From the NCBI RefSeq assembly GCF_052324685.1, contig NC_135212.1, positions 3,666,705 through 3,730,704 of the forward strand: a stretch of DNA of 64,000 nt. The letters run 5' to 3'. The position numbers and the translations under genes are program-made. This document shows positions 15,944-64,000 of this stretch, piece by piece. The stretch comes from Brachyhypopomus gauderio (Eukaryota > Chordata > Actinopteri > Gymnotiformes > Hypopomidae). The notes under the pieces were generated by a model. That model was not told the origin of the DNA and ran no database searches. It was given only the letters and a program-made list of their open reading frames with translations. The first letter of the stretch is position 1, and every line of letters starts with the position of its first letter.

Positions 15944-18900
15944 CAGTCTCTCTCCTCCAGTCCTCCAGAGTTAATAAGCCATATTCAGGGTGCTGTTCTG
16001 CAGCTCCAGTTGGAGTGTGAGAAGCTGCACAGCACGACCAGCCAGCTGATGGAGGCCCACGTCCAGAAACAGAGCCACATCGACGTGAGTTCAGCTGTGT
16101 TTGGGGCTGTGTCAGTGGAGCTGTGTTAGGGGCTGTGTCAGTGGAGCTGTGTTAGGGGCTGTGTCAGTGGAGCTGTGTTAGGGGCTGTGTCAGTGGAGCT
16201 GTGTTAGGGGCTGTGTCAGTGGAGCTGTGTCAGTGGAGCTGTGTTTGGGGCTGTGTCAGTGGAGCTGTGTCAGTGGGGCTGTGTCAGTGGGGCTGTGTCA
16301 GTGGGGCTGTGTCAGTGGGGCTGTGTCAGTGGAGCTGTGTTTGGGGCTGTGTCAATGGAGCTGTGTTAGGGGCTGTGTCAGTGGAGCTGTGTTAGGAGCT
16401 GTGTTTGGGGCTGTGTCAGTGGAGCTGTGTTTGGGGCTGTGTCAGTGGAGCTGTGTTTGGGGCCTTGGGTCAGTGAAGCTGTGTTTGGGGCCTTGGGTCA
16501 GTGAAGCTGTGTTTGGGGCTGGGTCAGTGAAGCTGTGTTTGGGGCTGTGTCAGTGGAGCTGTGTTTGGGGCTGTGTCAGTGGAGCTGTGTTTGGGGCTGT
16601 GTCAGTGGAGCTGTGTTTGGGGCTGTGTCAGTGGAGCTGTGTTGGGGGCTGTGTCAGTGGATCTGTTGGGGGCTGTGTCAATGGAGCTGTGTTAGGGGCT
16701 AGGCTCAGTGGGTCTAGGTTAGAAAAGGATTTTAAATGGATACTAAGGTATTAAGAGTGCAGTACAAACAGGTTAAACTTTCCCCATGTCCCTGTGCTTT
16801 CGGTCCTATTTTTAGGAATGCCTGATTTACCTTGTGAACTAGCTTTTGTCATGATCATGATCCTTTGCAGTTCCCACAGCAATGCCCCCTTGTGTCTTTG
16901 TTATGGTTTAGTGTCCTGGTTAGTATTATCATGTCAATCGTCACATCTGCTCATTTGTAACCCCGCCTCTCATTAGTGTTGTCACGTGTCTTGGTTTGGT
17001 TCCTTGTTTTACCTGTGTATTTAAACACTGCATTTTATATTCTCGATTGTAAGTTATTGTCATATTCAAGGTATGTTTTTGTTTACCTGTGTTTTTCTGA
17101 CTGTGGTTTCCTATTCATGTTTGTGTTTGTCTCTTTCACTGGTGTTTCACCTGTTAGTCTCGTTTGTTTCAGTTTAGTTATCTTGGATGTAGTGTCCGTG
17201 TTATCCTTGTTTCAGTTATCTTAGGTTTAGTGTGAATCCTCCGCAATATGTCCTGTTTAGTGACTCGTTCCTGGGTAACGTTATTAGCCATTGAAACCTC
17301 ATAAGGTTAATCAGGAATGTTTAGAGTGGGAACAAGACAAACATGTCCAAGTCAGGACTGATGAAGGAGAACCACTATAGTGCTACTGGCATTCTGGGTG
17401 TGCCTCAGAAAACTACATTTACTGAAATGCTTTTACCACCTGTACCAATTACACAGCACCTGTACCAGACCATGCAGGAACTGGAAGAGAAGAAGGCAGA
17501 CAAGGAGAAGGTGGAGATGGAGATCGGTGCTGTGAGTGTCTTAAACTTTAACACAGTCTTAAAGATGGCCCCATGCTGTGGCTTTCAGTGGCTGGATCTG
17601 CCCTTTCTCCCTTGTCCAGAAAGCTGACAAACGGGCCCTGGAGTCCAAGGTCAGCCGATTACAGTATGACGCCATGACGGAACAGCTGAACGGGATGTTT
17701 CAGGAGCTTCTGAACAAGGTCACGGGCCATGAGCAGGACTGGCATAAGGTGATCGAGAAGATCTCCAAAGAGATGGAGTGCAAGGTGAACTAAACACACC
17801 TGTAACAGAGCTGGATATTAACATATTGCATGTATTATATAATTGGATACAAACCAGGTAAATATGTTGGGTTACAATTGTGAACACTTTTTTTTCTCAT
17901 GTAAAAATGAGGTTTGTTTATCATGAGCATTGAATTTTAACATCAGAGAGAAGAACCCAGATTATGTCCCCTTCTCAGAGCAGAGAGGCTGTAAACATGG
18001 GACGTTTGCACTGTTGGTGTAAGTGCTGCAGCACCATATCACCACTGGCCACCAGAGGGAGCCAATGGGCTAATCAAGCCAAATGGGCTACACCTGCTTG
18101 ACAGCCCTTTATAAGCAGCTCCTGCCAAGATACTGGGTGCTGAATTGTATGTCCAATGTATGTCAGAATGGTATCTCGGGTAGGGGTTGTTGTGCATTTT
18201 TTTTTTTTTTTTTTGTCTTTCTTTTTTCTTGAGTCCTTCTCTGGTCTTGGTGTTTTTTTCTCCTCCTCTAAAAGCCTTTTAAATCTAAAGAACAAGTTTG
18301 TTCCCATCTTTCTTGGTTTTCTTTTTGCTACTCTTTTAGTTGGGGAGTTTTTCTTTTTCTTGTGCCTCGCTGTATGAGAGCTAGTCCTCCCCCTGGTGCC
18401 CTTTGTTCTCTCTTTCCCGCCCAAAACCGTTTTGACTACAACCTTCTTTTGTTTTCTCCTCCACCTCCTCCTGGCTGTTCCTTTCGCCCCCTCTCTGTTC
18501 TCTATCCCAGTTGTAGTTCAGCTCAGCAACTGGGTCCCACCTACCCAAAACCCGTCGTGGCTCATATGGTTCACCGCTGCCTAGCCACCCCGTTACAGAT
18601 GGAGCCTGTTGGTTTGACATGATCGTAGGAATTGGGCATTCAGCAGCAGAACTATGGTGTAGTTTCACCTGTTCTAACACATTTAATTCGAGTCATCACT
18701 TATCAAGCCCTCCATGAGATGGAGGGAAAATGTAAATCTCTGTGGTACTTTGCTTGACTGGGAAGGGGATCAGGAGGCCCTGAAGAAGATATTCAGAGTC
18801 TGGGCAGGCCGAGGATGTCGAGGGGTTTTGTTGCGGATGAACCCAACAAATGTGCTTCGTGGATAAATGTCATACTATGCAATTGGGATTATGATTCCAG

Positions 18901-34144: not shown

Positions 34145-35827
34145 TTAATCTGGTGGTAAGAGCAAAATCAGTTCGTTCACTGGTCTTAGAAAGGATGCAG
34201 TTTCACTCTTCCTAGTGACTCTCAACTGGACCTTGCGTACTCGTCCATCTTTGCTGGGATACACTTCGGTGACAATACCAAGGGGCCAGTCGTTCCTTTT
34301 GCATTGCATGTCCTTGAGAAGCACCACAGTGCCGACCTTGAGATTTGGTTGGTTAAGTGGCCACTTCCTGCGGGGTTGCAGTGTAACCAAGTACTGCTTG
34401 CGCCACCTGTCCCAGAATGTGTTTGACAGACTTTGAACTCTGCGCCACTGTTGCTTGTACAGGTCCTTGTGGTCGAATTCTCCAGTCGGAGGAGGGCAAG
34501 GGCCTACCTTTTGAGTCAGTAGAGATGCGGGTGTGAGGATGAAAGGATCTGTGGGGTCGGTTGACACAGGCACAAGTGGGCGATTGTTCACAATGGCAGT
34601 GACCTCTGCTAAGAAAGTTGTGAGTACCTCGTGTGTGAGTTTAGAAGATCCCATCTGCATGAGCATGGAATCAAGAATGCGACGTGCGACACCAATCATT
34701 CTCTCCCATGCTCCTCCCATGTGAGAGGAGTGTGGGACGTTGAAAGACCATGTGCATCCCTGCTCAGAGAGGAATCTCTCTACTGTCTTCTCAATGACAT
34801 AGGAAGGGATTCCTAGCTCTCTAGAAGCTCCGACAAAATTTGTGCCCCTGTCAGAGCGCAGGAGCTTCACTGGTTCTCAAATCGCCAGGAACCTTCTGAG
34901 TGCGTTGATAAAGCTGGAAGAGTCCATAGATTCCATGACCTCGATATGAATAGCTCTGACAGATAGGCAAGTAAAAAGAACTGCCCACCTCTTGCTCTCG
35001 GCATGTCCACCCCTTGTGCGTCGTGCAGCAACGGCCCAGGGTCCGAACACATCCAATCCAACATTGGTAAAGGGTGGCTCGGTGCTGAGTCTGTCCGGTG
35101 GCAGGTTAGCCATTTTTTGCACTTCACCTTTTCCTCTGAGTTTGCGGCAGACAACGCATTCAAAAATCAACCTATTGACACATCTCTTTCCACCCAGTAT
35201 CCAGTAGCCGGCATATCGGATGGCACCCTCTGTGAAGTGCCGCCCTTGGTGTTGTGTCTGTTCATGAAAGTGTCGCGCGATGAGTGTGGCTACATGGTGT
35301 CGTCCAGGCAAGATAAGTGGCCTCTTTTTGTTGGGTCCCACGTCAGCAGCCGTGAGACGTCCCCCCACTCTCAGCAGACCTGCTTGATCGAGAAAAGGAT
35401 CTAAGGCCCAGAGAGGACTGCTCTTTGGGATGTGTGCGTTGGATGAGAGGCACTCTAATTCCTTCTCAAAGGCTTCACGCTGGACCGTGCTAATGATGGC
35501 TGTTGTGCTCTGGGTAAGAACATCTACCTTTAGCAGCTCATGATGGGACTGCAATTTTTGATGCTGTTCCCCGTCATTGCTCCGTTTGAAGCGTTGAATA
35601 GTGTGAATCAGCACACCGATGGCCCTCGAAAGAGAACTCCAATGTGAGAAGCGACTGAAGCGCTGCGCACCAAGATGTTTAAGCACTGTCGTGGACAGAG
35701 TGGTCACTTGTGGCCGGATTTCAGGATCTTGGTCTGGCTGCAGGAGTTCAAAGGTCTGCTCGTCAGGCAGCATGTCGATAGGCTGAGTTAAAAAGGCTGG
35801 TCCAGTAAACCATATCGTGTCTTTCAA
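34145..35827 (-). pseudogene. BEL/Pao integrase region, two reading blocks
   Basis: Upstream block 34877-35827 holds the zinc-binding part (H...H with CVVCRKLRGKG) and the core start (VGLDVFGPW; a further Asp is expected in the next block). Downstream block 34145-34870 holds LLRSDRGTNFVGA and ERMIGVARR, the distal catalytic region, then a C-terminal beta-rich tail (GTVVLLKDMQCKRNDWPLG). A TGA at 34877-34879 separates them in the same frame and looks like CGA to TGA decay. Cut-and-join of cDNA is the ancestral function; inactive as written. Confidence 0.85.
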
Positions 35828-35845
35828 GCGGTTTGCTGGGATTCC

Positions 35846-36298
35846 TCAGGTCGCGATGTCTGCAGGGTTGTGCTGCGTGTGTACGTATTTCCACTGTTGA
35901 GGCAGTGTGCTTCGCCTAATTCGTTGGACCCGGTTGCTCACATATGTGTGGAACCTTCTTTTCTCATTGAAAATGTACCCTAGTACAATTCTGCTGTCTG
36001 TGCAAAATGTGACCTTGTCAAGACGAATGTCAATTTCAGACATAATGGTCTCAGCTAAGTTCACTGCCATGACTGCTCCACACAGCTCCAAACGGGGTAT
36101 GGTGTGTTCTGGCCGTGGCGCAAGTCTGGCTTTGCTTGAAATAAGTCCTGTATGGAAATGTCCATCTGTGTCTATGGCTCTTAGATTGGCGACGGCAGCA
36201 ACTGCCATTTCCGATGCATCTGAAAAAACGCAAAGATCCGTTCGCTTAGCAGACTTGGACCTGTGGGTGTAGGGTCTGGGGATCTTTAGTTTTTCCAA
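35846..36298 (-). pseudogene. BEL/Pao RNase H region
   Basis: Frame with LCVFSDASEMAVAAVANL (first catalytic Asp), RLELCGAVMAVNLAE and VTFCTDSRIVLGYI (later Glu and Asp), ending at HNPADIAT and a TGA at 35846-35848. It is in the same frame as the pieces on either side, separated by single stops, so it belongs to one ancestral pol. Confidence 0.85.
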
Positions 36299-36325
36299 AT
36301 CTTGGAGAGAATCTCTCCAGCGGTC

Positions 36326-38402
36326 TCATGATTTGCCCTTTTCTGCAGGCAGTGGAGCATCCCAGTCAGAAGAGTCAGTGACGAGTTCCCGAAGGATTGC
36401 TTTTCCTTGCACTGTCACTGGAGTTACAAACCCGAGGGGGTCATACAGGCTGTTCACTGTGGAGAGGACTCCTCGTCGGGTAAAAGGCTTCCTCTCGTTC
36501 TCCATGCGGTAAGTGAAGCAATCTGACTCCAGGTCCCAGTGCAGTCCGAGGCTCCTTTGTATTAGTAGACTGCCAGCGGCCAGGTCCAAGTCAAGGTCCT
36601 TTAGTTCTGTGGCGCGATCTTCACTGGGAAAGGCTTCCATTACCTCTTTATTGTTCGAGGCCAGCTTGTGTAGCCTGAGGTTGGAGCGGGCCAGCATAGC
36701 TTGGGTCCTTTTAAGCAGACTTATTGCCTGTTCGGGTGTAGAAAGTGATTTCAGCCCATCATCCACATAAAAATCTCTGTCCACAAACTGCCGCACATCT
36801 TCTCCATACTCACCCTGCCCTTCCAAAGCTGCACGTCTGAGACAGTAGATGGCCACAGCAGGAGAGGAGCTAATTCCCGAAAACGTGGACGTTCATGCGG
36901 TAATCTATGACTCTTTTTTCTAAATCATTACCTTTAAACCAAAGGAACCTGAGGAAGTTGCGGTCCTCAGGTTTGACCTTGAAGCAGTGAAACATTTGCT
37001 GTATGTCCACTGAGAAGGCGACTTGTTCCTTTCTGAAACGGAGGAGGACGCCGACAAGGCTGTTATTGAGATCTGGTCCAGTTAAGAGCACTTGGTTCAG
37101 TGACAGACCTCTGTGCTGTGCACTGGAGTCAAACACGACTCTTATCTGGGAGGGCTTTTTGGGATGATAAAACCCGAATTCCTCTCCATGTTTCATTGGG
37201 GGAGCTTCTTCAGCATGCCCCTTTTGAAATATCCTTTCCATGAAGGCGACGAACTGTTCCTTCATTTCAGGCTTTCTCTTGAAGGAGCGCTGCAGCGAGT
37301 TGAGGCGTTCTAGTGCTTGTGTGCGATTGTCAGGCAGCTGTGCCCGGTGGGCTCGGAAAGGCAGAGGAGCCACCCAACTGTTCCCTTCATCTTTGTAGAC
37401 GCCATGGTCCATGATGCTCAGAAACCGCAGATCCTCTATGGATGGAGCTTCTGTGTTGTCATCCTTGGTCGTTTCAAACACGTCGTTGTCTGGAATGTTT
37501 GGCATTTCCTTTGTGTGACTTTTCCTGTGCGGATGAGGGTAGGAAAGGTCTTTAGTGTTCCAATACATTTCTTTCACTAAATAACTGTTTGGGCACGCCT
37601 GAAAGAGGGAGGGGCGACCATTTCTCAGCACATTGGTGTAGTATGAATGGACAAGGGGTGGTTTGTGCGTGTCTCCGATGCACACGTCTCCCACGATCAC
37701 CCACCCGAGGTCCAGCCTTTGGGCATAGGGTGCATTGTGTGGGCCGTTCACCTGGCGTCGCACCTTGTGAGCTCTGATTATGTCTCGGCCTAACAGGAGT
37801 AAGATGGGGGCTTGTGGGTCGAGCTCTGGGATGTGTTTTGCCAGATGTTTCAAGTGGGCATGACTGGAAGCGACCTCCGGTGTAGGAATTTCTGATCGAT
37901 TGTTCGATATTTTGTTACATTCGATCAGTGGTGGCAGTGGGAGCGCGATGCCGCCGTCAACAGGTTCTACCATGAAGCCACGTGCTTGTCTGCCTTGAGC
38001 TTCTATCGTTCCTGCACATGTCTTTAGAGAGTATGGTGAGGGGCATCCTGAAATGTTGAAAATGCTGAAGAACTCAGACCGTGCGAGTGATCGGTTACTT
38101 TGGTCGTCTAATATAGCATACATGCAAAGTGCAGCATTGGACTTGGTGGCTGGGTACACTCTTACAAGGCATATTTTCGAACAGGAGCGCCCCGACATGC
38201 CCTTTCCACACACCTCAGTGCATGAGGCTGATACAGCAGTCTCCCCGCCATTCTCTGAGATGGAGTCTTCTGAGATGTTGGCTTTTGTCGTTGAGTCAGG
38301 GTGTAGTGCTGCGACATGTCTGTTGCTTCCACACTCTGTGCAGCTTACCTCATCGTTACAGTTCCTTGCCAAGTGTATGGCTTTACAGCACTTGTAGCAC
38401 AC
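36326..38402 (-). pseudogene. BEL/Pao zinc knuckle, protease and reverse transcriptase
   Basis: Block 36870-38402 opens with the knuckle CYKCCKAIHLARNC, then the protease box AILDDQSNRSLA, then RT start text (GFYHPKKPSQIRVVFDSSAQ, VAFSVDIQQMFHCFKV). Block 36326-36856 continues RT with the YVDD box (RDFYVDDGLKSL) and LGLHWDLESD. A one-base frameshift near 36865 separates the blocks, and a TGA at 36326-36328 ends the second. Confidence 0.87.
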
Positions 38403-38500
38403 TCCATGTTTCTTTAAGAGTGCCTTTCTCTCCTCTATAGGCTTATCTCTAAACCCACGGCACTTGTGTAAGGGGTGGGGCTTGTTATGCAGGAGACACG

Positions 38501-38847
38501 GGCTGTGTTCGAAATAGTCTACTACATACTACTGGCATACTGATCGAGCCCCAAATCAGTATGTCGTATGCAGTATGTGACCAAAATGAAAATTTCCAGT
38601 ACGCGAAACATACCCGGATGACTTACTACTTCCGCAAAATATTCCAGTACGCGAACAGAGCTATCTTCGTGGTGTACTGCATCCCATCATGCAACGCTAC
38701 GTTCACGTGACCCCGTAGTGTGCTTTGCTTTTGTCGCATACTGGAAACTGTACTGCATACTACTACGAGGACCAGTATGCAGTATCCAGTATATACCGAG
38801 TCCAGTATGCAGTATTCAGTATGTAGTAATCTATTTCGAACACAGCC
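38501..38847. mobile_element. 347-bp MITE inside BEL/Pao, no visible target duplication
   Basis: Ends are inverted copies: GGCTGTGTTCGAAATAG on the left and its complement on the right, followed by related TACTACATACTG text. The interior is full of CAGTATGC-like sub-repeats. Flanks (GAGACACG and AATGTTTT) share no duplication, and deleting the element exactly leaves the host gag in frame. Its non-duplicating behaviour recalls the Spy group of Harbinger-related elements (recollection, unverified). Confidence 0.75.
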
Positions 38848-38882
38848 AATGTTTTGCCAGGTCCTCTCTACTGGTGTACTTA

Positions 38883-40412
38883 TGGCGCATTTCCACTAGG
38901 GCCTGCTTGGCGCGGTACGGTTCGATACGGGTCGATTCGCAACAGAACGGTACGGTCGCGTTGTGTTTCCATTACAATGGTGAACCACCCCAATGTGGGT
39001 GGAGTCGCTGTTGGCGCGCGGGTTGTAGCGTCGTGATATCATTTGTATGCGACCACAACACCGGTCGATGCCCCTTAACACATAGCATTATTGTATCTTA
39101 TTTATCTTTATCTTCATTATTGTATGTGGTTGCTCTAATTATTGATAATAATTTGGTATTACTCAAACAGGCTGAACACACCCTGCATAAAAAGCATCAG
39201 TCATACAATCAAATGAAATCAAACTATTATGAAATATAGATATTTAAAGTACAACATATGTAAGTAATATAGTTATAGTTAAAAAAAGTGCAAAAAGCAA
39301 ATATATACGTATAGCTTTATATGAAATAAATATTTATAGTACTACAAGCAACATTTTGTGTGCTTTTACTGGCGTCTGTCTCGCATGGTGTTCACAAGTT
39401 CACCAAGCACCCCGAGGAAAGCCCGGTTGAAGGAAACATTTTCCGCCAACTCCGCTCGCCTCGTCAGTGGAAGGGGAATCTTGAACGTAAAAAATAACAA
39501 ATATTAAACACAAGCATTCCCGTGAAAGCAACAACAATATAGCGTAACTGCACAAAATGTGTAGCACGTCATCGCTGCTCATGCTGTGTTTATGGCTACA
39601 GCTAACTAGCAACTAGCAAGGCTAAGAGCTAGCTATTGTACAGTAGTGACTGTGGTGGTAACATTAACTACAAACACAGCTCTAAATTCCTGCGTTTACA
39701 ATAGATGCGTTCATATTACATTCATATTACATCTTTTACGAGCCTAGTAGTAAAACTGTGAAATCACAATACACTCACCATTCTCTGTGGCCTCCAGCAC
39801 CGACATTGTCCAGCACGTTTTCTCTTTCGTTAATGGCTGGCCGGTGACCGTATATGACATCCATTTGCTGGAACCATTTCCAGTCTTTGCGGTTTGCTCC
39901 GCTGTGTCCGTTATGGTCCTTCACCGCCCGGTAATCGCGTTAAGCTTTTTTAGCTTGGACCGACCGGCACTGCTGAACAGACCGCTGGTAGCCATGAGTG
40001 GCCATTAGCGCGCAAACCTCGCTAAAAACCTTTACATTTCTAGTGGCCCCGTCCAGTTCGCCCTGGATTTTTTGATCGCTGATTATTAACAGAAAGGTTT
40101 GTACCTCGGCATTTGACCAGGGAACAGACTTCGCTCCTTGGGTTTTAAAAATGGCTGAGGAGTCCATAGCATAGCGGAGGAGTCGCTCTCCTGACGCAAC
40201 CTGTGACGACACTCCCTGGCCAATCAGTGTCATGCTGTTCCTCCACGTCACAGAACTGTACCGCTTTGGAACGGTTAGAACCTCGAGCGAGCAGGTACGA
40301 AAATAGTACCCGAAAGTACCGGCTAACCGGGACCTGGTACTAATGGAAACACTCACAAACCGTCGCGAATCGAACCGTACCGCGCCAAGCAGGCCTTAGT
40401 GGAAATGTGCTA
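38883..40412. mobile_element. 1.5-kb PIF/Harbinger-type element in BEL/Pao gag
   Basis: Inverted ends TGGCGCATTTCCACTA and (complement) TAGCACATTTCCACTA, continuing with GCTTGGCGCGGTACGGTTCG on both sides. A 3-bp target duplication TTA lies at 38880-38882 and 40413-40415, the Harbinger size. It carries a Myb/SANT gene but no recognisable transposase. Restoring the single TTA site keeps the host frame. Confidence 0.88.
39783..40167 (-). pseudogene. Myb/SANT-like DNA-binding protein of the Harbinger element
   Basis: Starts MDSSAIF at 40167. It has the trihelix/Myb_DNA-bind_4 pattern: W at WSNAEVQTFLLI, then IQGELDGATRNVKVFSEV and GYQRSVQQCR. The frame breaks after AKKA (stop near 39940), while the expected continuation (VKDHNGHSGANRKDW, GHRPA) follows in another frame down to about 39783, so one indel has occurred. 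In Harbinger elements this protein partners the transposase and binds element ends. Confidence 0.8.
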
Positions 40413-40415
40413 TTA

Positions 40416-41905
40416 CTTGTGGAAGCGTGAGTGGCGCAAGGCGTGGGCGGAGCATCAAAGGACACCCCAGTCTTGAGAACAGCTACTGCTCTCTGACTCT
40501 CTAACTTTGACACCGGCTTGATATGACCAGGCTGCTCGGTATTGAGTGCTGCCTGCGTAAAGCCTGGGTCATTGCGCATCCTAGCTTGTTGGCACACAAA
40601 ATTCACAAAGAAGTTAAATGGAGGATAGGGAGCCCTGTATTGCTCCTTGTAGTTGAAACCTTGCGTGAGCCACTTTTCCTGCAGGTAGAACGGCAGTTTC
40701 TGTACGATGGGGTTAACCCCGCGGGGTGTGTCTAAGTAGCTAAGTCCAGTCAGGTCCCCATCCATTTTAGCAGCTTGAATTTCTAGTAATAAGTCCCCCA
40801 ATTCTCTTAGTTCGCGGCCGTCCTTGTTCTGCACTCTAGGGAAACTGTCAAGCCTTTTGAACAAGGAGTTTTCGATTATCTCTGGTGCTCCATAGTACTC
40901 ATAGAGCCGATCCCATACAGCTCTGAGTCCGGATTCAGGATAGTTCACATGAACCGTTCTTATACGCCTAGCGTGTTCAGCCGAGTCTTTGCCTAACCAT
41001 TTTACCAGGAGGTCGAGTTGCTCACTAGCTGATAGGTCAAGATCTCTGATAGAGTTTATGAAAGATGCTCTCCAAGCTCTAAAACATTCTGGACGGTCAT
41101 TGAATTGCATGAGTCCAGTAGACATAAGCTCACGCCGGGCCATGAATCTAACAAGGTCTGACATTCCTCTGCTTTCATTAAACTGGGCGTGCACAGGACT
41201 TCTTTGATGGTAAATAGCACTGGGTTGTAAACAGGTGTTGCCTAATAGTTTGTGTGTAGTGTCACTGTAATTGATACCTGGAGGTGGCTGCACTATCTCA
41301 GGGTGAGCCGACATCGTGGGGGCGTCGTCGGTTTGCAGCGGTCGTAGAGCGCACAATTCTGTGATGCCTTGCACATCAGGCGGACCCAGCGTTTGGGGTT
41401 GGTGTATGTGAAACGGTGTAGAATTCTGCTGAGGGACCGATTTAATTGAAGTATTGTAAGGCGGAACAGTACGAGCATACTCAGGATCATGCAAATCTGG
41501 ACTGCTAACATGAGCATTATTGGACATTCCTTCGACGTAGTCTTTGGTGCGCGCTTTTGCGTCATCAGATGGCACGTCAATGTCGCTGAAATCCTGCTCA
41601 ATTTCCCTTTGAGCGGCAGCCTCTAAGACATTTGCCTTGGCTGCGGTAGACGCAGCTCGTTTTTCAAGGCGAACTTTATCTAGTTTCAGTTCCAGACATT
41701 TTTTTTCTAACTCCAATTCTGCTTGTTTTAATTTCAGCTCGTTCTCTTTTACAGCGAATTCTCTTTCGGTCTTGGCAGCCTCTGCTTCTGCGCGCGCTTG
41801 GGCAGCAGCTAGTTTGCTAGCGGAGGAGTTCGAAGACCTTTTGGATGCGCTCGGCGCGTTAGACCTGGTTCTAATAGACCCTGTAGTTGAAGCCTTTCTC
41901 GACAT
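40416..41905 (-). pseudogene. BEL/Pao Gag, interrupted by the Harbinger insertion
   Basis: Starts MSRKASTTGS at 41905. Residues about 30-110 form an alanine/glutamate/lysine coiled coil (AARAEAEAAKTEREF-like). A capsid-like region follows, with FNDRPECFRAWRASFINSI, LVKWLGKDSAEHARRI and FYLQEKWLTQGFNYKE. The frame runs about 497 codons without a stop to the insertion at 40415, so gag decayed less than pol. It would continue beyond both inserted elements into the zinc knuckle. Confidence 0.85.
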
Positions 41906-42038
41906 CTTGACTGAGATCGTTTTTGTAACTTACTCGAAAGATGAACTAGCTTCGGTATATCCGTAGGGTGAGTTGCTCTCGTGATGAAGCTCTATTCTCC
42001 GAGCGCGAAGATTAGCCCGCCAGAAGTCCTCGTTTTAC

Positions 42039-46009: not shown

Positions 46010-47532
46010 CACTACCATTCAAAAGTTTGGGGTCACCTAGACAATTTTGTGTTTTCCCTGAAATCTCATACTTTTATTTATCAAATGAGTTGCAAAATGG
46101 ATAGAAATATAGTCCAGACATTGACAAGGTAGAAATAATGTTTTTGTTTTTTTTTTTTTAATAATTTTCTACTTTCTACAATTACAGCATTGCAGACCTT
46201 TGGCATTCTAGCTGTTAATTTGCTGAGGTAATCTGGAAAAATTTCACCCCATGCTTCCAGAAGCCGCTCCCACAAGTTTGATTGGGTTGATGGGTACTTT
46301 TTTCGTACCATACGGTCAAGCTGCTCCCACAACAGCTCAATGGGGTTGAGATCTGGTGACTGCGCTGGCCACTCCATTACCGATAAAACACCAGCTGCCT
46401 GCTTCTTCTCTAAATAGTTTGTGCATAATTTGGAGGTGTGCTTTGGGTCATTGTCCTGTTGCAGGATGAAATTGGCTCCAATCAAGCGCTGTCCACAGGG
46501 TATGGCATGGTGTTGCAAAATGGAGTGATAGCCTTCCTTATTCAAAATCCCTTTTACCTTGTACAAATCTCCCACTTTACCAGCACCAAAGCAACCCCAG
46601 ACCATCACATTACCTCCACCATGTTTGACAGATGGTGTCAGGCACTCTTCCAGCATCTTTTCAGTTGTTCTGCGTCTCACAAATGTTCGTCTGTTTGATC
46701 CAAACACCTCAAACTTTGATTCGTCTGTCCATAACACTTTTTTATGTTTTTTCTTTTTTTTTTAGGCTTTTTCTTTGCCACTCTGCCCTGAAGGCCAGCA
46801 TCCCGGAGTCGCCTCTTCACTGTAGACGTTGACACTGGCGTTTTGCGGGTACTATTTAATGAAGCTGCCAGTTGAGGACCTGTGAGGCGTCGATTTCTCA
46901 AACTGGAGACTCTAATGTACTTGTCTTCTTGCTCAGTTGTGCAGCGGGGCCTTCCACTTCTCCTTTCACTCTGGTTAGAGCCTGTCTGTGCTCTCCTCTG
47001 AAGGGAGTAGTACACCCCATTGTAGGAAATCTTCAGTTTCTTGGCAGTGTCTCGCATGGAATAGCCTTAATTTCTCAGAACAAGAATAGACTGTCGAGTT
47101 TCAATTGAAAGTTGTATTTTTCTGGCCATTTTGTGAGTTTAATCAAACCAACAATTGTAATGCTCCAGATTCTCAACTAGCTTAAAAGAAGGTCAGTATT
47201 ATAGCTTCTCTAATCAGCAAAACTGTTTTCAGCTGTGCTAACCTACTTGCATAAGGGTTTTCAAAATATCCAATAGCCTCCTTACACAGTTAGCAAACAC
47301 AATGTACCATTAGAACACTGGAGTGATGGTTGTTGGAAATGGGTCTCCATACATCTATGTAGATATTGCATTAAAAACCAGACGTTTACAGCTAGAATAG
47401 TCATTTACCACATTAATAGAGTATAGAGTGTATTTTTGATGCATTTAATGTTAGCTAAATTGAAAAAAAAAACTGCTTTTCTTTCAAAAATAAGAACATT
47501 TCTAAGTGACCACAAACTTTTGAACGGTGGTG
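46010..47532 (-). mobile_element. Tc1-like DNA transposon, full length
   Basis: Inverted ends CACTACCATTCAAAAGTTTG and (complement) CACCACCGTTCAAAAGTTTG, both continuing GGTCAC, flanked by TA (46008-46009 and 47533-47534). The 1523-bp size is normal for Tc1. It encodes a transposase on the minus strand with one stop and one frameshift, so it is recently dead. Confidence 0.93.
46081..47129 (-). pseudogene. Tc1 transposase, one stop and one frameshift
   Basis: Start MARKIQLSIE at 47129. A TAA interrupts at about codon 22, just before GYSMRDTAKKLKIS. The paired-like DNA-binding domain includes LTGPQLAASLN and VSTSTVKRRLRDAGL. A frameshift lies within the A/T homopolymers near 46740-46765. The catalytic part carries LWTDESKFEVFG (first Asp), ILQQDNDPKHTS (second Asp) and SPDLNPIELLW (Glu), the DD34E pattern. 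The lysine-rich run KKKKQKHYF near the end may reflect homopolymer change at the C terminus. Confidence 0.92.
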
Positions 47533-51865: not shown

Positions 51866-53086
51866 TTAACATTTGTTTGTGTGAAATGGCTGCTCTAGAA
51901 TCTTTTGACTTTTGCAAAATTTCCAAATTCCTTTACAAAGACACTTAAAGATCTTCTCCCATGCCTCCAATTCTGATCGCCACAGAGCTGATCTAGAGCG
52001 GATAAGATGAGAGGTTTCACTTTTCTTGCCTTTGGCCAGGCTAATGCTTTCTTTACAGATAAACAGGGCATCAACACCAATGAATAAGGCATTGAGACCA
52101 ATGAAACCAGCCCTGGCTGACTTTGACTGGGCCAGTGGTGCGCCCTTAGCCAGCTGCCCAATGTCAGGCAGGTCTGCAGTGAGATTAGGGATGCCGCGAG
52201 CTATTTTAGCCTCCTGAACCACAAGGACCTTCATGGCTGATGCCCCATCTACAACGGCATCAATACCTTTGGCTACTGCCTAGTTGTTAAGAGTTTTGCT
52301 CCAATAGCCATAGGGTTATGGTTACGGTTGGGGTTATGGTAATTTATTTGAGTTTGTAATTTATTTATTTGACCCTCTCTGTTATCTAATTCCTGCAAAC
52401 AATTTAGAACCTTCTGCACATCATCCATAAATCTCTTAAAGGTGTTGTTGGCCTTTTTCCCACGATGACTCTTTACTGCTATTTCAGTAATGCCTGTGAC
52501 TAAACTGTTAACCCCACTTGTGACCCCCAGTCCAACCCCTGTCAGTGTGAGGGCCAGGGACACTCCTGCAGTGACAGGGGCCAGAGCCAAGCCAACGATG
52601 GACAAGACACCTCCTGCAATGCCAACTGAACTGCCAGCCACAGTGGAGATGCTGAACCCCAGCTTCATCTTATCCAGCTGATTTGCATCCTCCTCTAATT
52701 CAGACAGGAACTGAAGCATTCTGGGGCCACACTGACTGAATAAGCCAATGAAGCGCAGGGCCTCACCACCAAAGAGGAACGTCATCCTGAATGATTCATC
52801 CATCCTGAAAAGGTCAGGAAAGAAAAAAATCAATGCACCACAAATGTTCAAAAGGTAAAAATGTTCATGCAAGAGAAGACGTGCGTTTACCTGATACTGA
52901 TTAGCTGTTTTAAGTGGACATACAAGTTACACACTGACTCCTCACTCGGGTTATAAAACTGCAGTGAAGGTTCCGAATTTTCCCAGCTGCAAAGTAATAT
53001 GTAACACAATCTGTCATTTCAATGTTCAGATATAAGCAAAGTAAAATGAATGTTTAATTACTAAAACAATAAAAAGATAATTAATC

Positions 53087-57375: not shown

Positions 57376-57668
57376 ATAGACACAGACAGACGAGTGGCTC
57401 TTAAAAGTGCCGTTGGGTCGCTATAAAGGACAGTGAGATAGATGGATGTGAGGAGGGATCTAAAAGGTCTGTGAAAAGAAAAAAAAGCATTTAATGTTGA
57501 TGTAACCCACCCACAAAGTGGTGTATTTAATTATTTCTTGTTGCTATTTGTTTTATTCAAGAAAAAAATAAATTCTTTTAGTTTGGCATTTCAGGCACGT
57601 TTCTCAACTAATTGCCGCTTACCTGTAATTGTGGGTCTAGAGTTGTAATGCAGCACCCCCTCTAGGTC

Positions 57669-57817
57669 ACGTGAGTGTGCTGTTTTAGCGCCGTGAGAGG
57701 TGAAACGTCTGGTGGCTGCTCGTGAGAACTCGCATCCAGCGCAAATATTATATTTGCTGGTTATATCGCATATACACCCACATATTGTGTCTGAATTATC
57801 ACATTTTTCTTTATCAG
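57669..57817 (+). repeat. 149-bp direct repeat, first copy
   Basis: Identical, base for base by eye, to 58113-58261. This copy is followed by GTAAGAAAATG, a strong splice-donor-like sequence (CAG|GTAAGA); the second copy is followed by TGGACTG. Confidence 0.95.
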
Positions 57818-58112
57818 GTAAGAAAATGTCTTTGTTATTTTATTATTATTACTTAGTAGAGTTATTTTATTTCTGAGTTCTAAAATATGTACCGACCACG
57901 TTGTGCTTTATGCTAGCTATGGGGAAACTTAGCCCGATATGCAGTGGTTAACGTCAAGTTCAGTTTTGTTGTTAACTGTTGTAAATGTATTTGATATTGA
58001 ATTTTTCTGCCATCCAATGTATATATCTTGTAGTTCAAATTGTATAGTTGTTTGTGATTTTATTTAAGCAGGCCATTAGTGCTGCTAGTGTATATTTTAT
58101 TACATTGTCGAT

Positions 58113-58261
58113 ACGTGAGTGTGCTGTTTTAGCGCCGTGAGAGGTGAAACGTCTGGTGGCTGCTCGTGAGAACTCGCATCCAGCGCAAATATTATATTTG
58201 CTGGTTATATCGCATATACACCCACATATTGTGTCTGAATTATCACATTTTTCTTTATCAG
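58113..58261 (+). repeat. 149-bp direct repeat, second copy
   Basis: Second member of the exact pair; 295 bases separate the copies. It begins ACGTGAGTGTGCTGTTTTAG and ends TTTTTCTTTATCAG. The repeat's GC-rich start contrasts with its AT-rich surroundings. Confidence 0.95.
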
Positions 58262-58493
58262 TGGACTGTTGAGAGCGATCAAATTCTGGAACGGCTCCGT
58301 CTTCCGGATCAAGAGATATACTTGCTGGACACCAGTACTGCAATTTTTTTGAGCTCCATCTAACACCGTCACCGTAAGACTGTTCCATACGGATCCGGCG
58401 TTAGTCCGGAGACAAGACATTTTTTTTTGTTGTTTGGTTTGTTTGTTGTATACATATATATATATATATATATATGTGTGTGTATGAATGTAT

Positions 58494-58496
<3 letters not shown>

Positions 58497-58573
<77 letters not shown>
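58497..58573 (+). repeat. TA microsatellite
   Basis: About 38 TA units, with a shorter TA run at 58453-58475, within the Ty3/gypsy leader. Liable to length error in assembly. Confidence 0.95.
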
Positions 58574-58578
<5 letters not shown>

Positions 58579-58834
58579 ATTATTCATGAACATAGTATAT
58601 ATATATTTTTTAATAGACATCATTTTAAAAAAAAATTCCATTCGTCTGCGTTTTTGTGTGCTTAAGTTGAGTGCGAGCTAGAGTTGTCTCTAAGCTGCCC
58701 CAAATATAATTTAAATTATATCAACTACAAATTTTATTTATTCACTCCAATATCCCAGACCCTGTAGATTAATTTCCTTACAGGATCATACCCTATATTT
58801 TATTATTGGGTTACAACTGATAAGAGAAATTAAG

Positions 58835-58852
58835 TGGCGCCCAACGTGGGGC
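58835..58852 (+). other. Primer-binding site, tRNA-Lys type
   Basis: TGGCGCCCAACGTGGGGC matches the 18-nt primer site complementary to the 3' end of tRNA-Lys(1,2), as used by several retroelements (recollection). It marks the start of minus-strand synthesis and fixes element orientation. Confidence 0.9.
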
Positions 58853-58956: not shown

Positions 58957-60712
58957 ATGGATGTGTGTACTCAGTATGATTTTGACCCTGAATGTTCAGT
59001 GCTCTTGAAAAATGTACATCCCACTGTAACACTCAGCGATGTACGTAGAGCCTTCCGTTTGATTGATAAGGTAATGAGAATTGAGTGGGTAGATGGAAAT
59101 ACTTCTGGGGTTTTACTTTGTGAGTTCCAAGAGTGTATTACTCCACTACTGCTGGAGGAGGAACACTTAAATGCAGATGGCAATGGGTATTGGGAAGTAA
59201 TTCAGGTAGATAGTCCTGAAGCTGGCAAGACCAAATTGCAGACAGAGGCTCCCAACAAGTCAGAGCATCTAGACAGTGTTCTGGGAGCCATGGCTGATGA
59301 CCTGGTGGCCCAGATAGAGTGCTTGGCAGATTTATATAGCGTGGATACCAATAACCTTAGCCAGCATATTGCTAATAAAATCACAAAAGGTGTAGGTTAT
59401 GGTGCACAGAACCCAGTTAGTTCCACTCCAGCTTCTAGCATATTTGCTCATAATGCAGACTCTGAGATTTCTGCCCCAACTTTTGTCACACCAACTCGGT
59501 CAGACAGCTCGGTCAGACAGCTCTGATTTTCCACGGGTTGCTCCAAAAGTGTCGTTTGCTCCTAGCGTTGACTCTCATTCTAGGGACAGGACCACTGATG
59601 CTGAGGCACAGGAGAGTTTTCTAATTCCCAGAGATGTACAGCGGGTAGTTGTAGAGCATGTAGTAAAACGTGATGCCAACTCCTTAGAGCCCACCACATC
59701 TCACCATAAGATCCGAACTTTCTCGGGACAGAGTCCAAAGCCGGCTGGGGAAGTTGACTTCAAAACCTGGAAAATATACGCAAGACAGGTGATCAGAAAT
59801 GACGCTTTGTCTGAAAATTACAAGAGGAGGCAGATACTAGATAGCCTTCTCCCTCCTGCTATCAGCATAGCACTCTGCGCTGGTGATAATGCACCCCCCA
59901 AGCTCTATCTACATGAGCTGGAAATTGCATACGGCAGTGTGACTTGTGGTGAAGAACTTTACATCCAATTCCTTGAGACACATCAGAACAGTGGAGAAAT
60001 GTCCTCTGACTTTTTGAGAAGGCTTCAGGCCTTAATGCAGGAAGTTGTTGAGAAGAAGGGTATGGCAGGCAGGCATGCTGATGTGCAGCTCATGAAGCAG
60101 TTTGTTCGTGGTTGTTGGGATGAGGGATTACTAACAGAGCTACGTCTTAAGGATGTGCTGACATGCCCGTCCCAGCCTACCATGAGTTACTCAGACCTGC
60201 TGTTTAAGATTAGGTCGATCGAGCAGGAAAGGCAACTTAAAGAGAGGAGGAAAAGTCGCCATCTTGGCATCCTACCGACTAAGGCACGTAGCCATACACA
60301 TGTCACCTCTAATTCTCAGCAATTACTACCTGAGAGTTGCAATAGTGCTGAAAAGGAAGATTTGAGACGAAGGATTCATCAGCTTGAAATAGAGGTGGCT
60401 GAAGCAAAAGCTGCATCTGAAGTAGGGAACGGTAATAGGGGAGTAATCTACCAAGAGTCTAAATCCACAACACAAGATACAACAAAGAACAAGACAAAAC
60501 TGGAACAAATTCCCATATCTAAATCTCAAGCTCAAAAGACCAGGACACTGAAGTTCTGCTATCGGTGTGGAGAGGACGCACATTTTCTGCAGCACTGTAA
60601 AAATCCAGTGAACGCAGCCCTGGTTCAAGAGAAACTAATGCAAAGACATGAACAAAAGAATAAATTCCAAAACACTAAAGCTTCACCCTCAGTACATTTA
60701 AATGGGGTGTAG
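58957..60712 (+). pseudogene. PNMA-like Gag of the Ty3/gypsy element, one frameshift
   Basis: First frame 58957-59526 (MDVCTQYDF) has an RRM-like N-terminal fold of the PNMA type (SVLLKNVHPTVTLSDVRRAF, GVLLCEF). Second frame, to 60712, has the PNMA capsid region: GEVDFKTWKIYARQVI, EELYIQFLETHQNSGEMSSD and MKQFVRGCWDEGLL. It then has a coiled coil and a CCHC knuckle (CYRCGEDAHFLQHC, 60557-60598). The break is a tandem duplication of TCGGTCAGACAGC near 59498-59523, which shifts the frame by one. Everything else is open. Structural protein forming capsid-like particles in related elements; mammalian PNMA genes are domesticated relatives. Confidence 0.88.
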
Positions 60713-63700
60713 CCTCTGTTGGGGAACAAACGGAGGCTACAAATGAAGAAAGTTCCAAAGCAGCCCAAAAGCAATTTGCATGCACTTTAAGCTTGAGTGA
60801 CAGTGTGTCAAAGCCTGAGAAACAAATACCTATTGGCTTAGTGGGAGAGCCTTATGATGGGGTAGCATGGTTGGATGGGGTGAAGTGTCATTGCCTCATA
60901 GATACTGGATCTCAAGTGACTTGTCTCTCAGAATCATTCTATAGGCAGCATTTGTATCACAGAGAGCTATCTTCTGTAGGTGATATCCTGCGTATTGAGG
61001 GTGCAGCGGGACAAGAGGTGCCTTACCTTGGGTATATTGAGATGGATATAAGATTTCCAGCCAGTGTTTGCGGGACAGGAACAACCTTCACCATTCTAGC
61101 CCTTATCTGCCCCGATCAAAATTATAATGCTAACACTCCCTTACTGGTAGGGACCAATGTCCTTAGACGACTTATTCAAGACTGTCAGAGTACGAGAGGG
61201 AACCAGTACCTCAGCACATTGCCCATACATGCTGACTGGATCAATGCCTATGCTATTTGTGATGCAAAGCTGAAGTCAGAGATGACTGATAGAAATCCTA
61301 TTCCTGTCCGTCTGTCCGGAAAACATGCAGTCACCATCCATAAAGAGGAGAGCCGTGTTTTGGTTGGGATTTGTCATGCCAAAAAGTCTAAATGGATGAG
61401 ACCAGTAGTTCTAGAGGAACCTGCAGGAGGCCCTTTTCCTGGTGGACTTGTGGTGAGTGCACAGTTAATCCAAGTGCAACCCAGATCACACAATAAAATT
61501 AGGGTAGTAGTTCAAAACATATCAGACCACAGTGTAACTTTGCAACCCAGGCAGAGGATTGCAGAAGGTTTTCTGGTGGATTGGGTCAAGCCAGTGAATC
61601 CAGGTGCCAGTTATGGTGATCCAAATGCTTCCAAACTTTCTGTTCAGCAATTCCCTTTGTCGGTTTCAGAAACTGCTGTTCCCCAGGATCTGAATTTCGA
61701 GAATTCCCTTGTGCCAGAAGAGTTTAAACTGCACATCATATCCAGAATAAACCAAGAAGTATCCAGTGCCTTCTCTAAGCATGATTTAGATGTCGGGCAT
61801 GTTAATGGTGTCACACACAAGATTGAATTGTCAGATCACATACCATTCAAAGAGCGTACTCGTCGAGTGTCACCTGCTGATTTTGAGGATTTAAAGAAAC
61901 ATCTGAAAGAGCTCCTATCTATCGGCATTATAGAGGAGTCAAACAGCCCCTATGCTTCCCCAGTGGTCTTAGTTAGAAAGAAAAATGGTGATCTTAGAAT
62001 GGTCGTGGATTATCGCAAACTCAATAATATAACCAAAAAAGATGCATATCCTCTTCCAAGGATAGAGGAGACTTTTGCCTTACTCACTGGTTGTAAATGG
62101 TTCTCCGTTTTAGATTTAAAAAGTGGCTACTATCAGCTGGAAGTTGAGGAAGCAGATCGTCCAAAAACTGCTTTTACTACGCCCTTTGGAAACTGGCAGT
62201 TCCGCCGCTTACCTCAAGGTCTCACTAATGCTCCTGCAACTTTTCAACGGACCATGGAGAGGGTTATGTCAGGGCTCAATCTGCAGGAAGTAATTGCTTT
62301 CCTAGACGATTTGATCATTTTTTCAGAAACCTTAGAACAACATGAGGAGAGGCTAATGAGAGTACTGGGAAGGATCGCTGCATTCGGGCTGAAGTTGTCT
62401 CCTACCAAGTGCAGGTTCTTTCAGACCTCCGTGAGATACCTGGGTCATGTGATTTCAGCCCAAGGTATTCAGCCTGACCCTGACAAATTAGAGGCTATAA
62501 AAGGGTGGCCTACGCCTAAAACAGTCAGAGAGCTCAGATCATTTCTGGGTTTCTCAGGCTATTACCGCCGATTTATGGAAAACTACTCTAGAGTAGTAAA
62601 GCCTCTAAATGAGTTGTTGCAGGGAGGATCCTCCACCAGACACAAAACATCGGCACATCAGAACAGATCAAAATTTCAATCTGTGGTTGAAAAGTGGAGT
62701 CCTGACTGTCAAAACGCCTTTGAGACTGTCAAACAAAATCTAACTGCTGTGCCAGTACTGGGCTTTGCTGACTGGAAGCTACCTTACATCCTCCATACAG
62801 ATGCTAGTACCACTGGTTTGGGTGCTGCACTGTATCAGATTCAGGAGGGGAAAGCTAGAGTCATTGCCTATGCGAGTAGGGGCCTCAGTAGAAGTGAAAG
62901 GAACTACCCTGTCCATAAGCTCGAGTTTCTGGCACTAAAATGGGCCATATGTGAAAAGTTCCATGATTTCCTTTATGGTGCCAATTTCAGCGTGCTAACG
63001 GACAACAATCCTTTAACATATGTGCTTACTACTGCCAAGTTAGATGCAGCTGGACACCGCTGGCTTGCCGCTCTGTCCATGTACAATTTCGATATTAAGT
63101 ACAGAGCTGGGAAAACTAACGTGGATGCTGATGGTTTGTCACGTAGGCCTCATGCCCCTGCAGGGGAGGATGAAGACTCTGAGGATATTGAGATGAGAGT
63201 AATGAGGATGCTGGATAGAGCAGCTCACTCTCCAGAAGAGTTTGAACTAATGAACCCAGCTGTCTTAGAGACTTTGTGCCTTAGACATGGTGTGCGGTGT
63301 ATGAGAGGAGGCGTGCAACTGGACAAAGAATCTGAAATAGACGATAGCGAATCTGAGGTGACTCCTGCAGTGGAAACGCTGCTGTGTGATGAGAGGGCTG
63401 TCCCGAGTGATTTAGTGGATCCTGAACCATGGCCCGGACATTCCACGTTACCCAGCATGACTCCATCTGACTGGGAAGAGCTACAAAGAGATGATCCCGC
63501 TATTAGTTATATAATCAGGCTTTTACAATCGGGTGAGGGGTTAGCTGACTCAGATGAGCAAACGGCACCTAGAGAAGTACATCTGCTCTGGAGAGAGAGA
63601 CAAAGATTGATCTTAATTGACCAAGTTCTATATCGTCAAGTTACCGATCAGTATGGCGAAAAGTATAATCAATTGGTAGTTCCAAGTAGCCTTAGACAAA

Positions 63701-64000
63701 GAGCACTAGAAGGCGTACATGACGAGACTGGTCACATGGGGTATGAAAGAACACTGGAGCTTGCGCGTGCTAGATTTTACTGGCCAAAAATGGCAGTCTC
63801 TGTTGAACACAAATGTAAGACGTGTGAGAGATGCCTTAGGAGGAAATCTCATGCTCAAAGGGCATCTAAGCTTGTAAATATCAAAGTCTATTCACCGCTT
63901 GAATTAGTCTGCATTGATTTTTTATCACTAGAGCCAGACGCCAGTGATACTAGGAATATATCGGTTATTACAGACCATTTTACAAAATATGCCCTTGCAT
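60679..64000 (+). CDS. Ty3/gypsy Pol (protease, RT, RNase H, integrase start), runs off the window
   Basis: Open in one frame from 60679 to the window end, more than 1100 codons, checked codon by codon over almost all of its length. It lies in the -1 frame relative to gag and overlaps it by 34 nt. Protease: CLIDTGSQVTCLS (catalytic DTG at 60901). RT: VVDYRKLNNITKKDAYPLP, LPQGLTNAPATFQ and the AFLDDLIIFS box (FLDD at 62299-62310). RNase H: ILHTDASTTGLGAALYQ, HKLEFLALKWA and LTDNNPLTYV. Integrase: H-x4-H...C-x2-C zinc module from about 63718 (HDETGHMG, CKTCERC), then VCIDFLSL and VITDHFTKY, the first catalytic aspartates. The rest of integrase and the 3' LTR are beyond the edge. An open pol implies a young insertion. 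Confidence 0.93.
60697..60741 (+). promoter_or_regulatory. -1 ribosomal frameshift site with hairpin at the gag-pol overlap
   Basis: Heptamer T TTA AAT (60697-60703) is in the gag phase required for -1 slippage. Four bases later a 13-bp stem begins: TGTAGCCTCTGTT (60708-60720) pairs with AACGGAGGCTACA (60729-60741) with a single G-T wobble and an 8-base loop. The gag stop TAG (60710-60712) lies inside the stem. Slippage would move ribosomes into the pol frame. Confidence 0.85.

Follow-up and report, generated by a model that had tools for sequence, protein, structure and literature searches.

A predicted −1 frameshift signal with a pseudoknot at the gag–pol junction of PNMA-type metaviruses in the genome of Brachyhypopomus gauderio

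The heptamer of mammalian Ma3 (PNMA3) is GGGAAAC. Ma3 shows about 20% frameshifting with an H-type pseudoknot, and both PNMA3 and PNMA5 (Ma5) combine a PNMA capsid gene with a −1 shift and a pseudoknot of this type (PMC5009743), the shift leading into sequence in which no domains are recognised (PMC11011659, PMC5009743). PEG10, a gene that goes back to a metaviral gag-pol, also has a −1 frameshift with a pseudoknot, with the heptamer GGGAAAC and a spacer of 5 (PMC2800197). Concerning the elements themselves, PNMA-type metaviruses whose gag comprises an RNA-binding domain, capsid and nucleocapsid are described from hosts that include fish (PMC11011659); the passages of that 2024 study on PNMA-type elements describe no frameshift signal, and its stand-in for the PEG10 ancestor is stated to be an element without one. 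The signal is also not named for PNMA-type elements in the titles and abstract openings of the open-access literature among the matches listed. Here we describe the gag–pol junction of a PNMA-type Ty3 element (metavirus) in a stretch of 64,000 nucleotides from the fish Brachyhypopomus gauderio, referred to as the window. Judged from the sequence, and with a probability of about 0.93, this junction directs programmed −1 ribosomal frameshifting, stimulated by an H-type pseudoknot. The element shares the PNMA capsid, the zinc knuckle and the fish host with the described metaviruses; it differs from PNMA3 and PNMA5, which are host genes without pol, and from PEG10 in heptamer and spacer as well as in lineage, PEG10 being related to sushi-ichi, a different metaviral line.

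In its geometry the junction resembles the ORF1a/1b signals of nidoviruses (infectious bronchitis virus, SARS-CoV, Berne and Breda torovirus and equine arteritis virus), which have a spacer of 5–6, a stem 1 of 10–11 bp and a loop 1 of 1–2 nt; the toroviruses have a long loop of 10–11 nt, as does the window pseudoknot (PMC3835772). In a table of the same source infectious bronchitis virus, SARS-CoV and the toroviruses are entered with UUUAAAC and an 11-bp stem 1, and equine arteritis virus with GUUAAAC; the spacer of −1 signals is put there typically at 6–9, and at 3–7 for the UUUAAAC viruses. The SARS heptamer is written UUUAAAU in PMC7297798, but UUUAAAC in PMC3835772 and PMC4769073.

The gag–pol junction in the window

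The features of the junction are the following:

59396–60712, + strand: gag open frame with PNMA capsid (PF14893) and CCHC zinc knuckle
60679–64000, + strand: pol open frame, −1 relative to gag, running beyond the window end to a stop at L098:1389
60697–60703, + strand: slippery heptamer T TTA AAT in gag phase (gag codons TTA 60698–60700 and AAT 60701–60703)
60704–60709, + strand: spacer, 6 nt in the register common to the aligned families (GGGG at 60704–60707)
60710–60712, + strand: gag stop TAG, within stem 1
60710–60720, + strand: 5' arm of stem 1, 11 conserved pairs, reaching 60708 in the window family
60729–60739, + strand: 3' arm of stem 1, reaching 60741 in the window family
60723–60727, + strand: 5' arm of stem 2 (pseudoknot), GGAAC, within the loop of stem 1
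60752–60756, + strand: 3' arm of stem 2 (pseudoknot), GTTCC

TTTAAAT is the only XXXYYYZ heptamer (Y = A or T) in 59396–60712. As in canonical −1 signals, it stands in the zero frame within the gag/pol overlap and is followed by a short spacer (6 nt, or 4 nt if two extra outer pairs, 60708–60741 and 60709–60740, form) and by a stable structure with compensatory changes across families, many in stem 1 and one two-sided change in stem 2. An earlier note on this DNA had placed the heptamer in the correct gag phase, a 13-bp stem containing the gag stop four bases after it, and the opening of pol in the −1 frame at 60679; the sequence and its reading frames agree on all three. The full stem of the window copy (60708–60720/60729–60741) has 13 pairs, 12 of which are Watson–Crick and the remaining one is U60717–G60732. 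As an account of the stimulator, the stem was right but incomplete, the pseudoknot arm GTTCC having gone unnoticed. A pseudoknot search, which the note had suggested together with RNA folding, finds this arm opposite GGAAC in an H-type geometry with a loop 1 of 2 nt, a loop 2 of 1 nt and a loop 3 of 10 nt (12 nt at an 11-bp stem 1). The fold of 60704–60765 has z = −3.45, and that of the wider 60680–60780 only −2.15. No match at the gathering score was found in an Rfam scan of the window.

Heptamers of the form XXXYYYZ are frequent (392 on the + strand of the window, 781 on both strands), which would favour a chance stem next to a chance heptamer. Among the 781, TTTAAAT nevertheless has the longest ungapped downstream stem (13; runner-up 12) and the second-lowest energy over the first 45 nt, a stem of 13 was reached in 0/3000 dinucleotide shuffles, and the arrangement recurs in 23 other junction families; coincidence can practically be dismissed.

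A common register across junction families

A search of the genome with 161 bases of DNA returned only eight near-identical copies of the element, which are of no use for covariation, so the families were supplied instead by a PF14893 profile search of the 797 Mb genome from which the window comes. At least 150 PNMA-capsid places were scored of 435 candidates, and 97 of the 150 were examined: 30 loci from the search, 59 fetched and the 8 copies of the window family. L094 and L095 have no match to the window gag and were left out of the frame counts. In the remaining 95 loci, pol lies at −1 relative to gag in 55, at 0 in 31 and at +1 in 3, and is indeterminate in 6. An XXXYYYZ heptamer in gag phase within the overlap is present in 48 of the 55 loci with pol at −1 (34 TTTAAAC, 8 TTTAAAT, 6 GGGAAAC). 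Three of the others, all of one family, have GTTAAAC, and two (L076, L090) have TTTAAAC past an earlier break in gag; L038 and L064, relatives of fused families, have pol at −1 but lack a heptamer. GTTAAAC, the heptamer of equine arteritis virus (PMC3835772), characterises the family L074, L075, L089 and L096, where a pseudoknot with 10/11 and 5/5 pairs follows it. Concerning the heptamer place in the 23 aligned junctions other than the window family, TTTAAAC, GTTAAAC or ATTAAAC is found there; the last is confined to one locus with a broken gag, L066, and may be a decayed TTTAAAC. The combination of heptamer and knot is absent from L055 (junction missing), L077, L087 and L065, though their relatives have it. 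Fused families have gag and pol in one frame of about 2000 amino acids (e.g. L010–L012, L014–L016, L018, L019, L047 and L062), and no slip signal was found at their gag/pol junctions; one motif-scan match in the fused locus L024, away from the junction, was taken as chance.

The structure search used 44 junctions, which form 23 families at 85% identity and include 2 of the 8 window-family copies. The register alignment has 24 rows (20 TTTAAA(C/T) families and L066, L067, L074 and L090) with a pairwise identity of at most 80%. All rows follow one register after the heptamer: 6 nt, 11 pairs, 2 nt, 5 pairs, 1 nt, the 11 partners, then 9–18 nt and the 5 partners. The last gap is 9 nt in 1 row, 12 in 11, 15 in 10 and 18 in 2, in every case a multiple of three, as is expected within the pol frame. 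In this register 93.5% of the 384 cells pair, compared with a mean of 80.0% when the 3' letters are reshuffled (0/500 as high) and 36–49% when the register is slid by 1–3 columns (49% at one column). Two-sided changes are seen in 10 of the 11 pairs of stem 1 and in 1 of the 5 pairs of stem 2, and the covariation is 0.492 against 0.220 in shuffles (0/500 as high), counts that take no account of kinship among the families. The stem 1 figure is free of row-by-row choice, since stem 1 lies at an equal distance in every row. When the lengths of the spacer and of loop 3 are allowed to vary, 19 of the 23 families reach 14 or more of the 16 pairs, compared with 11/6900 shuffles and 22/7742 other places in these loci given the same freedom. 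The earlier note had called for an alignment of sibling copies in search of compensatory stem changes; across the 24 junction families these are found, and stem 1 evolves in a compensatory manner in a constant register.

Stem 1 also holds most of the energy and the strongest covariation, and RNAalifold, which draws no knots, recovers stem 1 alone; a plain stem-loop with an incidental 5-bp stem 2 would predict as much. It leaves aside a loop-complementary 5-nt arm that lies 9–18 nt past stem 1 in 24/24 junctions (placed by best pairing) and always at a multiple of three, the G-C to A-U change on both sides of stem 2 in the window clade (4/24 rows), and the 6-bp version of stem 2 retained in the GGGAAAC clade discussed below. 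We therefore consider the plain stem-loop unlikely and the second stem of the pseudoknot well supported.

Several points weigh against a pseudoknot-stimulated shift. Best pairing had determined where the 3' arm of stem 2 was set before pairs were counted, and its 100% pairing owes something to this choice; stem 2 has only 5 bp, 3 of them invariant, and its single two-sided change, in four related rows, may be one event. L071 and L076 have only 7/11 ungapped pairs in stem 1, although by eye a one-base bulge would restore the pairing. In the window copy the pseudoknot has a competitor in a nested fold whose stem is lengthened by the GGGG spacer, the spacer region can pair instead with CCCUC upstream, and gag is disrupted upstream of the signal. 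PMC5009743 does not include UUUAAAU when it names the shiftiest heptamers.

With these points considered, the conserved RNA structure is almost certainly a −1 frameshift stimulator. Ribosomes translating gag would reach T TTA AAT with the pseudoknot (11- to 13-bp stem 1, 5-bp stem 2) at the mRNA entrance, the two tRNAs would pair anew with TTT AAA, and a minority of the ribosomes would continue in the pol frame beyond the gag TAG, which would set the ratio of Gag to Gag-Pol. The earlier claim that a −1 frameshift signal joins gag and pol thus finds support in the phase, the overlap and the compensatory change in stem 1, while the slip itself and its efficiency are what we infer from the sequence. 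A different way into pol (stop readthrough, re-initiation or splicing), with the heptamer a relic, is very improbable: fused, signal-free families do indicate that the signal is dispensable for the group, but readthrough of the TAG would miss pol, which is in another frame, and the compensatory evolution speaks for use across families.

The window copy, its siblings and neighbouring features

Further features of the element upstream of the junction are:

57501–58815, + strand: 5' long terminal repeat (LTR; TGTAACCC...GGGTTACA), compared with the 3' LTR at L098:1430–2808
58835–58852, + strand: primer-binding-site-like stretch, 19 bases past the LTR end, which we take to be of tRNA-Lys type
58957–59526, + strand: N-terminal gag piece, from the ATG to a premature stop after the duplication
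59495–59520, + strand: exact 13-bp tandem duplication, which disrupts the gag frame (1 of 8 copies)

The assignment to PNMA-type Ty3 elements, made in the earlier note, is borne out by the capsid (PF14893, 1.1e-19; PDB match to PNMA2, 2.6e-14) and by the pol domains, which follow the Ty3 order of reverse transcriptase, RNase H and integrase zinc domain. A weak protease match (0.004) and a match to the rve integrase core beyond the window (6.3e-6) are both under the Pfam cut-offs; with these, the LTRs and the order protease, reverse transcriptase, RNase H and integrase are those of Ty3/Metaviridae. A CCHC knuckle of the form CX2CX4HX4C (CYRCGEDAHFLQHC) was read by eye in the gag translation, and a Pfam knuckle match is absent at 0.01. 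Pfam and PDB sequence searches with the N-terminal gag piece gave nothing convincing for an RNA-binding domain, and a single-sequence model of the first 100 gag residues was too poor to use (mean predicted local distance difference test score 50.5). The Pfam matches of the pol pieces, which were cut at arbitrary places, include no dUTPase, a domain that PMC11011659 names for its PNMA-family proxy. Scans of viral contigs with gag and reverse transcriptase pieces found no relative.

Across 1141 sites outside a TA tract the LTRs, about 1.3 kb each, show 2 mismatches, both adjoining the tract, and 5 gap columns. The siblings are 98.9–99.3% identical to the window copy over about 3.1 kb, and the window family is, on sequence divergence, young. 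No exact target-site duplication was seen around the element. The 5' LTR contains an exact direct repeat of 149 bp (57669–57817 and 58113–58261), probably a duplication that predates the insertion of the window copy, since both copies are also in the 3' LTR.

The earlier note called the element intact. In the window copy, gag is not open from the ATG to the slip site: the 13-bp duplication splits it into two frames and leads to a premature stop at 59524–59526, while the other seven copies have the 13-mer once. Across the compared stretch gag is open as far as the TAG in 4 of the 8 copies, the window copy being among the other four, and pol at −1 is open to the end of the stretch in all 8. The letters of the heptamer, stem and pseudoknot are constant in 8/8 copies; over the 62 nt only L008 differs, by one change in loop 3. 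Because of the premature stop the signal of the window copy is probably not reached from the gag ATG and, if working, probably works in the siblings with an open gag. It is thus likely that the window copy's signal is a dead passenger, given the duplication with its stop and the lack of one open gag frame in half of the copies; this is compatible with a frameshift signal in the family, to which the main reading refers. Against it stand the youth of the insertion (2 mismatches in 1141 LTR sites), signal letters equal to those of the siblings, and possible internal initiation.

Elsewhere in the window a second retroelement, BEL/Pao-like by eye, whose gag and pol occupy several open frames, lies at 34145–41929 on the minus strand; a scan of three of its frames gave one Pfam match only, a weak DUF1759. 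Also on the minus strand are a DDE_3 transposase frame at 46084–46761 (3.3e-12), presumably Tc1-like, and a frame with an Apolipoprotein L domain at 52276–52926 (1.1e-26). A tandem array with units of about 26–28 bp lies within a GC-skewed stretch at 16093–16712.

Heptamer groups, fused lineages and mammalian relatives

The capsid tree has 52 rows and is unrooted; L097, on a long branch, was left out of a second tree. One side (100/99) holds the TTTAAAC-type families, two fused lineages and three unclear rows. Within it the window family groups with L054, L056 and L090 (100/99), and all of these have GGAAC/GTTCC as stem 2. Two clades make up the other side, one with GGGAAAC (100/98) and one of fused families that also includes two unclear rows (98/95).

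Junctions with GGGAAAC can be aligned in almost the same register if stem 2 is given 6 bp, e.g. GGAACG/CGTTCC. L020, L027 and L097 have 15/17 pairs and L031 16/17, with 0–1 of 2000 shuffles as high; L035 and L036 have only 13/17, with 5–6 of 2000 shuffles and 42–43 of 3292 other sites as high. A first reading of these junctions, with an 8-bp stem and long loops (7/11 pairs, 5-bp stem-2 register), was replaced by the 6-bp register, which was picked after viewing the sequences. The knot seems to be older than the exchange of heptamers between the two groups, as far as the alignments can tell; the poor stem 1 of L035 and L036, the post hoc register and the small number of GGGAAAC families count against this.

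A single clade of all fused families is rejected by the approximately unbiased test (p = 5.8e-5; the groups had been noticed on a quick tree beforehand), so the change between signal and fusion occurred more than once. Joining both fused lineages on the TTTAAAC side into one is compatible with the test (p = 0.09), and fusion origins are therefore put at no fewer than two, and not at three. A test of L047 and L062 alone was set aside, as near-copies of L062 had been omitted. The nesting of fused lineages among TTTAAAC families suggests that the direction was loss of the signal, on a tree that is unrooted. The L062 family has no heptamer, and its alignment to the neighbours L084 and L086 is gapped across most of their stem region.

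Concerning the mammalian genes, the PNMA family profile scores 141.6–169.9 bits with members of the GGGAAAC branch and at most 94.8 with the examined TTTAAAC-type loci. Against PNMA2 (PDB) the window scores 56 bits, the fused L010 128 and the GGGAAAC-type L027 143; the elements nearest PNMA2 in this fish genome are thus on the GGGAAAC or fused side of the tree, unlike the window family. The element had been proposed as a useful comparator for mammalian PNMA genes, which it remains as a member of the series, though not as the best one, the GGGAAAC/fused clade being nearer. A broader reading, whose chances we regard as evenly balanced, is that one pseudoknot (6-nt spacer, 11-bp stem 1, 2-nt loop 1, 5- to 6-bp stem 2) would be ancestral to PNMA-type metaviruses, with G GGA AAC and T TTA AAC replacing one another as heptamer, T TTA AAU and G UUA AAC arising by drift, the signal lost at gag–pol fusion at least twice, and the mammalian PNMA3 and PNMA5 signals derived from the GGGAAAC branch.

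As predicted here, the signal is ordinary in its mechanism; its interest lies in the large series within a genome, in which heptamers vary, the knot stays and fused families do without the signal. One fish genome contains about two dozen signal-bearing families, two heptamer groups that share the pseudoknot, and fused signal-free families, and so offers a natural series for testing how a recoding signal originates, is exchanged and is lost.

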